DNA of 64,000 bases from Halobaculum halobium (GTDB lineage Archaea > Halobacteriota > Halobacteria > Halobacteriales > Haloferacaceae): assembly GCF_030127145.1 (NCBI RefSeq), contig NZ_CP126158.1, positions 2,356,001-2,420,000 of the forward strand, read 5' to 3'. The position numbers were made by a program, and so were the translations under genes. Below the pieces are notes generated by a model that was given only the letters and a program-made list of their open reading frames with translations, was not told the origin of the DNA and did not search any database. Positions 11,167 through 57,833 of this stretch are shown piece by piece; the stretch's first letter is position 1, and the number at the start of each line of letters is the position of its first letter.

Positions 11167-11607
11167 TCACCGAACGACCGTCACCGGAACCGACGACCGC
11201 CGCGTCACCTTCTCGGCGACGCTGCCCATGAGGACGCGGCTGAGCCCCCTCCGCCCGTGACTTCCCATCACCACCTGATCGACGTTCTCGCCCTCGTCGT
11301 CGAGGTAGTCGAGGATGGACTGGGCGGGCCCGCCGACCAGTCGAACCGTCTCCGCGTCGACGCCGGCCTCGTCGGCGCGCTCGGCCGCCGATTCGAGCAG
11401 CTCGTCGCTCGCTTCCTTCGCGGACTCCTCGAGCTCCTTCGAGTAGAACGCGTCCATGCCCTCGCCGTCGCCGGCGGACACCCACCGCGTCGGGTCGACG
11501 ACGTTGACGAGGACGAGCGTCGCGTCCTCGTGGACCGCCAGCGCGTGATCGAGCGCCTTCGTGGACTGATCGGACCGATCGAGCGCGACAAGTACGCGTC
11601 GTGACAT
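11167..11607 (-). CDS. Universal stress protein, UspA family (146 aa)
   Basis: Single Usp domain, start MSRRVLVALDRSD. The ATP-binding signature near the C-terminus is MGSHGRRGLSRVLMGSVAEKV followed by PVTVV, so it is probably an ATP-binding member. The ATG at 11607 is preferred over an in-frame upstream start at 11682 since the Usp fold begins with beta-1 at RRVLVALD. It may be co-transcribed with the carotenoid oxygenase gene downstream. The role, a general stress response, is a family-level inference. Confidence 0.9.
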   Translation of the reverse strand: MSRRVLVALDRSDQSTKALDHALAVHEDATLVLVNVVDPTRWVSAGDGEGMDAFYSKELEESAKEASDELLESAAERADEAGVDAETVRLVGGPAQSILDYLDDEGENVDQVVMGSHGRRGLSRVLMGSVAEKVTRRSSVPVTVVR

Positions 11608-11686
11608 ACGCGCAACGACGCCGGGGAGGGACTCGGGCGTTTCGGTCGCGACGGAATCGGCGCCGCTTCTCGGGACAGTCACCCGC

Positions 11687-12091
11687 TCACACCGCGCCGG
11701 CGAGAACGGCCGCGAGCCCGACTGCGCCCCCGGCGAGGAGGGTGTTGCCGGCGACGAAGGCGACTGCGCGTCCGCGCTCGCCGCGGTCCCACAGCCGCAC
11801 CGTCGCCACCGAGAACGACGAGAACGTGGTGAAGGCGCCGCAGGCGCCCGTCCCCGCCAGCAGGAGGGCGTCGCCGCCGACGGGCCAGAAGACGAGCAGC
11901 CCGAGCAGGAAGCTCCCGAGGACGTTGACCGTCAGCGTCCCCAGCGGGAACTCCTCCCGGTTGACAGCCGACCCGATCAGGTGACGCGCGACGGCGCCGG
12001 CGGCGCCGCCGACGGCGACGAGTGCGGGATCGGGCACGGTCGCGAGCACCCCCACGGACGCGAGCGCCGGCGCGGCGGTCGTGAGGGTCAC
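11687..12091 (-). CDS. crcB: CrcB-family fluoride channel, second copy (134 aa)
   Basis: Small four-helix membrane protein of the CrcB/Fluc family, which exports fluoride as a dual-topology dimer. Motifs are GGAAGAVARHLIG, GTLTVNVLGSFLLGLL, and TGACGAFTTFSSFSVATV with the conserved phenylalanines. It starts with GTG at 12091, which overlaps the stop of the upstream crcB copy (GTGA), so the pair is translationally coupled. Paired CrcB proteins usually form heterodimers with opposite orientation. Confidence 0.9.
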   Translation of the reverse strand: MTLTTAAPALASVGVLATVPDPALVAVGGAAGAVARHLIGSAVNREEFPLGTLTVNVLGSFLLGLLVFWPVGGDALLLAGTGACGAFTTFSSFSVATVRLWDRGERGRAVAFVAGNTLLAGGAVGLAAVLAGAV

Positions 12092-12483
12092 GCGCGCACC
12101 TCCCGGTCGGGCCGCGGGTCGACGCGGGCGGCGAGGTCGCGCCCGGCGAGCGCGGCCGCGAACCCGAGCCCGTAGCTGCCGAGGAGGTACGCCACGCCGA
12201 CGAGCGGCGCCGCCTGTATCGTCTCGACGGTGAACGTGCTGTAGGTGGTGTACGACGAGAGCACGCCCGTCGCCAGCAGCGTCCGCGTCCGGTCGCCCAG
12301 CCGGTCGGTGCGAAGCGCCTCGTACAGCAGAACGCCGAGCAGCAGACTGCCGGAGACGTTCGCCGCGAGCGTCCCCCACAAGCCCGGGAGCGCCCCGCCG
12401 ACGGCGTGGCGGGCCGACGCGCCGACGGCGCCGCCGGCAGCAACGAGCGAGCCAGTGAGCCAGGCGGGGTCCCGCTGCGACAT
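12088..12483 (-). CDS. crcB: CrcB-family fluoride channel, first copy (131 aa)
   Basis: Partner of the next gene in a fluoride-efflux pair. It has AGGAVGASARHAVGG, GTLAANVSGSLLLGVLL and TGVLSSYTTYSTFTVETI. It ends in a basic/acidic tail (RVDPRPDREVRA), while the second copy ends hydrophobic, consistent with opposite membrane orientation. The ATG at 12483 is used; a GTG three codons upstream is possible. No fluoride riboswitch signature was found in the leader. Confidence 0.9.
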   Translation of the reverse strand: MSQRDPAWLTGSLVAAGGAVGASARHAVGGALPGLWGTLAANVSGSLLLGVLLYEALRTDRLGDRTRTLLATGVLSSYTTYSTFTVETIQAAPLVGVAYLLGSYGLGFAAALAGRDLAARVDPRPDREVRA

Positions 12484-12540
12484 ACGCGGCACCTCTTCGG
12501 TGGGGCGTATCGCCCTGTCGGTCTCGTCTCGCTCACGTCT

Positions 12541-21022: not shown

Positions 21023-21048
21023 CGTTCGACCGGGATATCCTCAGGTGC

Positions 21049-21123
21049 GGGTTGGTGGTCTAGTCCGGTTATGACGGCTCCTTCACACGGAGCAGGTCGG
21101 CGGTTCGAATCCGCCCCAACCCA
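21049..21123 (+). tRNA. tRNA-Val (anticodon CAC)
   Basis: Full cloverleaf. Acceptor GGGTTGG pairs with CCAACCC plus A discriminator. Anticodon stem GCTCC/GGAGC has loop TTCACAC (anticodon CAC). The T arm GGCGG-TTCGAAT-CCGCC is standard. CCA is not encoded. The 3' part is copied at 21795-21832 (see repeats), marking this as a former integration target. Confidence 0.95.
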
Positions 21124-21135
21124 CTCGTTTTCCTG
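21098..21135 (+). repeat. att-like direct repeat, tRNA-side copy
   Basis: Covers the T arm and 3' acceptor strand of tRNA-Val plus 12 bases beyond. Matches 21795-21832 except for three mismatches, all in the acceptor strand. Confidence 0.65.
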
Positions 21136-21177
21136 TCGCTTCTGAGGATACAGTGTTGCCGACAGCGTCTCCTCTTC

Positions 21178-21639
21178 TCACGGCTCTCCGAGCACTTCGT
21201 GGCGGCGGTACAGGTAGAACGCCGCGATGACCACATTACCGGGGTATAGGAAGAACAGCGCGACTTGCCAGGCAAGAGATGGGTCCCACGTTGAGTTCGC
21301 GCGAACGTACTGTCGGTCGAAGTACGCGCCGATAATCGGAGCGAACACCGACGCGAGGAACGCGAAAATGAACACGAACGACAGCCCGGTAGTCTGTGCG
21401 GACGATTGCTGGCTAAACAGTACGAATGACGGAATCGTGAACAGCGTCGGGACGGCGATCGCGTAATACCAGCTCGGTCCCACGGTCGTCTCGTAGTTCA
21501 CGGGGTTGTGACTACTCCCAACTGCTGCGGCGTCTCCTGCGTTCCGAACGCCGCAGTGTGGACACAACTCTGCTCGCTCCTTGATCGCCTTGCCACAGGC
21601 TTCACAGAACACTTCATCTGGCTCCTTCGTCCGTCCCAT
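21178..21639 (-). CDS. Zinc-ribbon membrane protein inside the att-flanked insert (153 aa)
   Basis: An N-terminal zinc ribbon (FCEACGKAIKERAELCPHCG) is followed by about three hydrophobic helices (WYYAIAVPTLFTIPSFVLF; LSFVFIFAFLASVFAPIIGAY; LAWQVALFFLYPGNVVIAAF) and a short basic tail. Soluble-zinc-ribbon plus membrane layout is common among haloarchaeal accessory proteins. The ATG at 21639 is chosen as the frame upstream runs through non-coding repeat DNA. Codon use is less G/C-biased than in neighbours, in line with acquisition by transfer. Function unknown. Confidence 0.75.
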   Translation of the reverse strand: MGRTKEPDEVFCEACGKAIKERAELCPHCGVRNAGDAAAVGSSHNPVNYETTVGPSWYYAIAVPTLFTIPSFVLFSQQSSAQTTGLSFVFIFAFLASVFAPIIGAYFDRQYVRANSTWDPSLAWQVALFFLYPGNVVIAAFYLYRRHEVLGEP

Positions 21640-21794
21640 TCTCTGGACCGTCGTTTCGCGGACGCCTCTGTATACGCGACGGTCGACTGTCGGTGCGGAG
21701 TGCATGTATCCGAGATAACGAACCAGCACCTCCAATGAGTTCTCGCTGCCGGATACTACTCGCCTCGCTGATGAGACGATTCCGTACGCAATCC

Positions 21795-21832
21795 GGCGGT
21801 TCGAATCCGCCTCGATCCACTCGTTTTCCTGC
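21795..21832 (+). repeat. att-like direct repeat, distal copy
   Basis: Copy of the tRNA-Val 3' end without the rest of the tRNA. The T-arm block of 18 bases and the last 15 bases are exact. The three mismatches fall where the acceptor strand would pair, so this is not a second working tRNA. Confidence 0.65.
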
Positions 21833-21901
21833 TGTTCTCGACCGACTACCGGAGCCGTCGCGTCAGAGGAATTTTGTATTCGGATCCGGTGAATGCGCAC
21901 G

Positions 21902-51820: not shown

Positions 51821-51987
51821 ATGGACGCGCGGGTGACGCGAGTCGGGGTCGCGCGCCCGGGGACTGAGCCCAGAGGGGTTCGACCCACGGTCGTTCCACG
51901 CTGCTCCACTCCCTGCTTCGAATCCTTCTCGTGCCACGGACGCGGCACGGACTCGTCACTCCGCTCCTCGTCGTCGTGCCGCAATAC

Positions 51988-52091
51988 TGGGCCCAGAGGG
52001 ATTCGAACCCTCGACCGCCCGGTGACTCATCCGGCGGCCGGAACCGACCGGAGTATGAGCCGGGTGCTATACCAGACTAAGCTATGGGCCC
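51988..52091 (-). tRNA. Elongator tRNA-Met (CAT) with 30-nt intron
   Basis: On the minus strand, acceptor GGGCCCA pairs with TGGGCCC plus A. The anticodon stem is CCCGG/CCGGG and the mature loop is CTCATAA. A 30-nt intron beginning CTCCGG and ending GATGAGTC lies after position 37. Its ATGAG can pair with CTCAT of the anticodon region, as in a bulge-helix-bulge splice site. The T arm is GAGGG-TTCGAAT-CCCTC. Haloarchaeal elongator tRNA-Met is known to carry an intron; this one is short. CCA not encoded. Confidence 0.92.
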
Positions 52092-57617: not shown

Positions 57618-57690
57618 GTCCGGGTAGGGTAGTGGACTATCCTCTTGGCTTGCGGAGCCAGGGACCGGAGTTCAAATCTCCGTCCGGACG
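57618..57690 (+). tRNA. tRNA-Arg (anticodon GCG)
   Basis: Acceptor GTCCGGG/TCCGGAC (last pair G-T) with G discriminator, anticodon stem TTGGC/GCCAG with loop TTGCGGA (anticodon GCG), T arm CGGAG-TTCAAAT-CTCCG. TTTACGTA about 30 nt upstream is a likely TATA element. No CCA encoded. Its 3' end is duplicated 141 bp downstream. Confidence 0.93.
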
Positions 57691-57833
57691 TTCTCACCGC
57701 GCCGCCACACCGCGAGCGACTTCTGTCGCTCGCACACGCGGCGCGGTTGTCGCTCTGCACACGGAGATTTGAGCAGCGAACGAGCGAGCACCAGCGAGCG
57801 AAGTGAGTGAGTTCAAATCTCCGTCCGGACGTT
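57668..57833 (+). repeat. Exact 25-bp duplication of the tRNA-Arg 3' end
   Basis: The 25 bases 57668-57692 recur exactly at 57809-57833. A 12-base inverted piece of the same sequence (ACGGAGATTTGA) sits between them at 57761-57772. Such duplications mark integration and excision at tRNA genes. The 116 bp between holds no gene. Confidence 0.65.
57712..57733. other. Perfect hairpin between the tRNA-Arg repeats
   Basis: GCGAGCGAC-TTCT-GTCGCTCGC, a perfect 9-bp stem with a 4-nt loop, lies 21 bp after the tRNA. It could be a terminator for the tRNA or a site used by an element. No T run follows on the plus strand. Confidence 0.45.

Follow-up and report, generated by a model that had tools for sequence, protein, structure and literature searches.

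A likely remnant of an integrated element behind tRNA-Val(CAC) of Halobaculum halobium, and hairpin repeats behind haloarchaeal tRNA genes

The 3′ ends of tRNA genes are preferred sites of integration in Archaea, and the tRNA-Val(CAC) gene is one of the most frequent targets, according to the excerpted text of PMC8371274. The locus described here resembles the tyrosine-integrase elements of tRNA 3′ ends treated in that text in its site at tRNA-Val(CAC), in the tRNA gene left whole, in the 3′ repeat at its far end and in its foreign composition. It differs from the integrative elements presented there in measuring only 0.66 kb and in holding one gene and no integrase that we could see. In Haloquadratum walsbyi, a 6.7-kb integrase-less region behind tRNA-Thr has been interpreted as a remnant (PMC3119063, excerpted text). 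Our locus shares with that region an imperfect partial tRNA copy and the absence of an integrase nearby, but the H. walsbyi region is ten times longer and consists mostly of hypothetical genes and pseudogenes (PMC3119063), whereas the insert behind tRNA-Val holds one intact gene. We consider this insert to be, probably, the remnant of an integrated element of which a single cargo gene is left.

The window (the whole stretch of DNA analysed) comprises 64,000 nucleotides of contig NZ_CP126158.1, in a genome of 3.46 Mb and 3 contigs (G000). An intact tRNA-Val(CAC) gene lies on the plus strand at the proximal end of the insert, at 21049–21123 according to Rfam and reaching 21124 according to ARAGORN. 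As an earlier note on this DNA had claimed, the 3′ end of this gene is repeated downstream. The proximal copy (21098–21135, plus strand) comprises the T-arm, the acceptor 3′ strand and a short flank, that is, the last 26 bases of the tRNA and 12 bases beyond it; the distal copy (21794–21831, plus strand), presumably the displaced half of an att site, is identical to it at 35 of 38 positions, with 696 bp between the two starts. The 12-nt extension, CTCGTTTTCCTG, was absent from the earlier note. A chance origin of the repeat was rejected because the next-best match to the 38-mer, on either strand of the 64-kb window, reaches 24/38. The three mismatches of the distal copy do fall, as had been observed, in the acceptor-strand part; all are transitions, and one is also present in the distal copy of the congener G006. 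Drift is therefore sufficient to explain them, and the donor tRNA that had been proposed as an alternative source is unneeded. The 24-mer test places the distal copy 673 bp behind the end of the tRNA. The tRNA gene is also flanked by an inverted repeat of 14 nt (86%; 21036–21049 and 21137–21150), which could let the leader of the precursor pair with its trailer, or may be due to chance.

Between the two copies, the segment at 21136–21793 has a G+C content of 58.2%, against 69.9% for the window, a value in the lowest 0.09% of the 658-bp stretches of the window. By-eye inspection of the ORF list gave a single plausible gene in it, on the minus strand at 21178–21639, so that the description of the intervening DNA as lower in G+C and carrying one gene holds. 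The GC3 of this gene is 0.71, versus 0.83–0.96 in seven neighbouring ORFs. No integrase was seen in the ORF list, by eye, either in the segment or adjoining it.

The gene, presumed to be cargo, encodes a zinc-ribbon protein of 153 aa with predicted helices. Its similarity to Pfam Zn_ribbon_3 is weak (26.5 bits, just below the cut-off of 27), and its predicted structure shows three long helices (56–78, 85–112 and 120–150) at low confidence; with a mean pLDDT of 59.6, the model was too weak for a fold search. Nothing in NCBIfam reached its cut-off, PADLOC gave no match, and a search of genome contigs returned one irrelevant match; in PHROGs the protein matched a viral "membrane protein" family at 8e-9, along with weaker matches. 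Going by the architecture, one might guess at a small membrane-bound sensor or adaptor. Eight homologues align to the protein at 43–49% identity. The four cysteines of the ribbon are invariant among them, as is most of a YLYRRH..VL end motif, and this indicates that the frame of 21178–21639 is intact. One homologue is resident elsewhere in the H. halobium genome, and others are found in, among others, the congeners G002, G004, G005, G006 and G009. The product would be a zinc-ribbon membrane protein that has diverged from other members of an ordinary family of haloarchaea, one with a resident copy in the same genome.

The site was compared in 10 congeners, one genome per species, so that the comparison is one between species. 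The tRNA-Val gene and the DUF7120 gene upstream of it are in place in all ten, and the zinc-ribbon gene is at the site in none of them (tblastn of the loci, DNA search of the genus); a YgjP-like gene was found within the 1.5 kb covered in five. A site with a single tail is found in G035, of another genus. Since the gene is missing from all ten congeners that retain the tRNA and DUF7120 genes, and since its composition is foreign, the data support reading the segment as an insertion at a known integration hotspot. That the gene was instead inherited within the genus and lost by the congeners is highly improbable. The family is indeed chromosomal in other haloarchaea, and neither a tRNA nor, by eye, mobile genes were recognised at three homologue loci (G123, G137 and the resident H. 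halobium copy), but such a history is at odds with the absence at the site in 10/10 congeners and with the composition of the segment, and the protein is 43–46% identical to the chromosomal copies of its genus, not above the 49% that it shares with G123, from another family.

Behind the distal copy, positions 21820–21843 (plus strand) are similar to the tRNA-Val flank of other species, with ungapped matches of 20/24 to G001 and 19/24 to G029; the proximal flank scores 17/24 and 18/24 against the same two. The distal flank thus looks weakly, and not by much, the more host-like, and which copy carries the host flank is only weakly resolved because the proximal flank also resembles that of relatives. 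A distal-type flank follows tRNA-Val directly in G029, where an additional tail copy stands ~100 bp further on, and as a variant without a second tail in G035 (both other genera); in G001 it comes after one hairpin unit of the kind described below, and in G078 after an isolated tail. The flank pattern matches 21 of 147 genomes. It is common to few of them, since 20 loci examined included only four at tRNA-Val (H. halobium among them) and one at an isolated tail, the other 15 being elsewhere. The isolated tRNA-Val tail of G078, with a flank like that of H. halobium, is at 17302 of L202 (G078:C1:2184000-2203000), a locus with no tRNA in 19 kb; an ORF read by eye as integrase-like lies at 11569–12495 of the same locus.

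The earlier note had proposed an inserted element, either a remnant or a minimal satellite mobilised by another integrase. The remnant stands as the best reading, given the insertion, the composition and the congeners; for the satellite no positive evidence was obtained. A 0.7-kb unit still mobile, excised and moved in trans by the integrase of another element, would agree with two well-matched repeats around one intact gene, but the repeat is its sole ground, because no integrase was seen and a second copy of the unit was not found by DNA search of the 10 congeners, nor in phages and viral contigs; plasmids gave no DNA match and one weak protein match (33% over 63% of the query). The gene family was also followed across the order, where 28 loci occur in 21 of 392 genomes. 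When all 28 were scanned for tRNAs, only one of the other 27 had a tRNA within 1.5 kb (~1.2 expected by chance), namely L213 of G378, next to tRNA-Gly(TCC); at that locus, 18 kb of sequence contained no tail copy, and no integrase was recognised by eye. The small unit was thus not met a second time among the congeners, plasmids, phages, viral contigs and homologue loci searched, and we regard a mobile satellite as very unlikely. The gene family was likewise rejected as a marker of small mobile units, its proximity to tRNAs being close to chance and the G378 locus lacking a tail copy. In G378 (L228, G378:C1:1895500-1914500, 570 onward) the homologue is convergent with, and close behind, tRNA-Gly(TCC), and lies beside a second zinc-ribbon gene. 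Another gene with a zinc-ribbon start, of ~200 aa and otherwise unlike the one at tRNA-Val, is found in H. halobium itself behind tRNA-Lys(TTT), after a tail-hairpin unit (L146, G000:C1:1457166-1459239, from base 538).

Copies of tRNA tails proved to be frequent behind haloarchaeal tRNA genes. In six of the 10 congeners a second tRNA-Val tail (≤7/24 mismatches) starts 112–153 bp behind the tRNA, and G007 has three further copies; arrays in other genera hold three further copies in L029 and two in L014. In H. halobium, a tail copy of 19/24 or better is present within 1.6 kb of 7 of the 45 other tRNA genes, always at 74–118 bp, the 99th percentile of 2070 control comparisons between tails and the downstream DNA of other tRNAs being 18/24. 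Tail copies at loci not chosen by hairpin pattern were then scored for the inverted T-arm of their own tRNA (≤1 mismatch in nine) at 25–85 bp upstream: 16 of 25 had it and 9 did not, although the 25 are not independent, several coming from one array. At control positions, 5 of 350 windows qualified and 31 of 350 ran off the locus. Four of the seven H. halobium copies carry the inverted T-arm. Tail repeats 74–153 bp behind tRNA genes thus appear to be common in the order for a reason other than integration and, being common, make a tail repeat alone weak evidence of integration.

Within the window, outside the insert, a unit of this type lies behind tRNA-Arg(GCG) on the plus strand at 57766–57831, with the inverted T-arm starting at 57766 and the tail copy at 57808–57831 (23/24); over 57618–57831 the order is tRNA, strong hairpin, tail-hairpin unit. 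An intron-bearing tRNA-Met on the minus strand (51988–52091) has a tail copy at 51888–51865 (19/24) preceded by a stretch resembling an inverted T-arm (window positions 51865–52091). Tandem arrays of such units were seen in L007 (G007), L029 and L069 (G024), and L110 and L111 (G024), the tRNAs concerned being tRNA-Val, tRNA-Arg(CCT) and tRNA-Gly(TCC); units of differing core classes can adjoin behind one tRNA.

In each unit the left arm is an inverted T-arm of the resident tRNA, followed by a core and by a copy of the tRNA tail that closes the hairpin. The matched pattern GATTCGA-N-TTCGAATC occurs in 49 of 60 genomes (131 forward and 143 reverse matches, largely the same sites) and GATTTGA-N-TTCAAATC in 51 of 60 (244 forward matches), while reversed-pattern controls gave none for the former and one for the latter. 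The mismatched pair GATTTGA-N-TTCGAATC gave 36 sites, counted over both strands, in 26 of 60 genomes; many resemble units that carry a single base change, the G006 unit at tRNA-Val included. Of 24 loci listed for the GATTCGA pattern, 16 lie within 350 bp downstream of a same-strand tRNA, for eight amino acids, a placement expected by chance at ~0.5% of sites. The eight others are L072, L083, L086, L087, L088, L091, L092 and L093, of which L087 is behind a tRNA-Thr with the pattern fitting the other strand only. When the pattern was loosened and genomes were drawn from the whole phylum, forward matches (median 7) turned up in 51 of 53 genomes of the order. Of 241 genomes outside it, 104 had at least one match on either strand, at unplaced sites and with 0–3 forward matches each, so that the units may extend beyond the order. 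One match was found in viral contigs, with no tRNA there, and looks like chance; a stricter pattern gave none in these contigs. At the 12 loci compared with Rfam, none of its families extends over the units, and a literature search over the titles and abstract openings of open-licence papers returned no description of them.

Pairing was assessed on 22 hand-picked hairpins of one core class, with the structure of the L007 unit as reference. The 18 pairs of this structure are 97.6% paired, versus 17–43% for slid versions. Cells changed on both sides numbered 30 versus 9.9 in shuffles, in a set where the outer arm was pre-selected by the search pattern; outside that arm, two-sided changes occur at columns 14/45, 17/42, 18/41 and 26/33. 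Pairs changed on both sides numbered 5 versus 3.5, a figure attained in 56 of 500 shuffles; for additional pair types there was no excess (10 versus 11.6). As read from the alignment, the commonest core class has two Watson-Crick pairs alternating with GA/GA steps, an arrangement reminiscent of sheared G.A pairing, and additional core classes occur. Cores folded better on the sense than on the antisense strand in 35 of 49 cases, a weak effect with a mean core z of −0.76.

Against this background the repeat around the zinc-ribbon gene can be evaluated. The distal copy at 21794 contains a full T-arm, has the 12-nt flank in common with its proximal counterpart and lies at a spacing of 696 bp, compared with ~70–155 bp for the hairpin units, and when the sequence was read by eye no inverted T-arm was seen before 21794–21831. 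A decayed hairpin unit is accordingly disfavoured as its origin, and the two copies appear to resemble an att pair rather than tail-hairpin units. The same features bear on a further alternative, in which a second tail would have been present before the gene arrived, and foreign DNA would have entered beside the repeats or between them through homologous or illegitimate recombination, with no integrase involved. The further tails at 112–153 bp in 6/10 congeners, the base change common to the distal copies of H. halobium and G006, and the likeness of both flanks to the flank of relatives would all suit such a course; the full T-arm, the absence of a visible inverted T-arm and the common flank would not, as the units lack these traits or have them in part. 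We regard it as the main rival of the remnant, though rather doubtful.

In the preferred reading, a mobile element would have entered the chromosome at the 3′ end of tRNA-Val(CAC) by site-specific recombination, presumably catalysed by a tyrosine integrase. At the proximal att copy the tRNA gene would have remained complete, and the host flank would have been displaced to the distal copy. The element would later have lost its integrase, or never have had one, along with nearly everything else, leaving ~0.66 kb and one intact cargo gene. The points against a remnant are the lack of a visible integrase, the lack of a unit copy elsewhere, the frequency of integration-free tail repeats at tRNA-Val, the likeness of the proximal flank to that of relatives, the small number of genomes with such a flank at tRNA-Val, the additional tail copy in G029 and the comparison of a single genome per species.

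The hairpin units themselves, as distinct from the gene insert, have outward parallels. The rtT repeats behind E. coli tyrT each carry a copy of the tRNA 3′ end, and the units resemble them as repeats behind a tRNA gene with 3′-end copies; they differ in the pairing of their tail copy with an inverted T-arm, and in their occurrence at many isotypes across the order. In integron cassette arrays, too, units with imperfect hairpins stand in tandem at a fixed site, a likeness that is outward only; the arms of our units follow the resident tRNA. The units would behave like cassettes fitted to tRNA ends, because their arms follow the resident tRNA and their core classes cross isotypes and genera. 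We judge the evidence evenly poised on whether haloarchaeal tRNAs commonly bear an undescribed unit family, made up of a first hairpin and then a second one (inverted T-arm of the own tRNA, a core of few classes, most commonly G.A-rich, and a fresh tail), tandem in places and cassette-like, which would act as RNA in the tRNA trailer or as folded DNA, and which at tRNA-Val would occupy the spot taken here by the zinc-ribbon gene.

The insert at tRNA-Val is a tidy but ordinary case, an island at this tRNA reduced to one gene. It comes with a warning: tail repeats that stand a short distance behind haloarchaeal tRNA genes are often no scars of integration. The tail-hairpin units are more surprising than the gene insert. 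Present at many isotypes, with arms that co-vary with the tRNA, they suggest a trailer structure or a cassette system, which could matter for the processing of tRNA 3′ ends, for integration at these ends, or for both.
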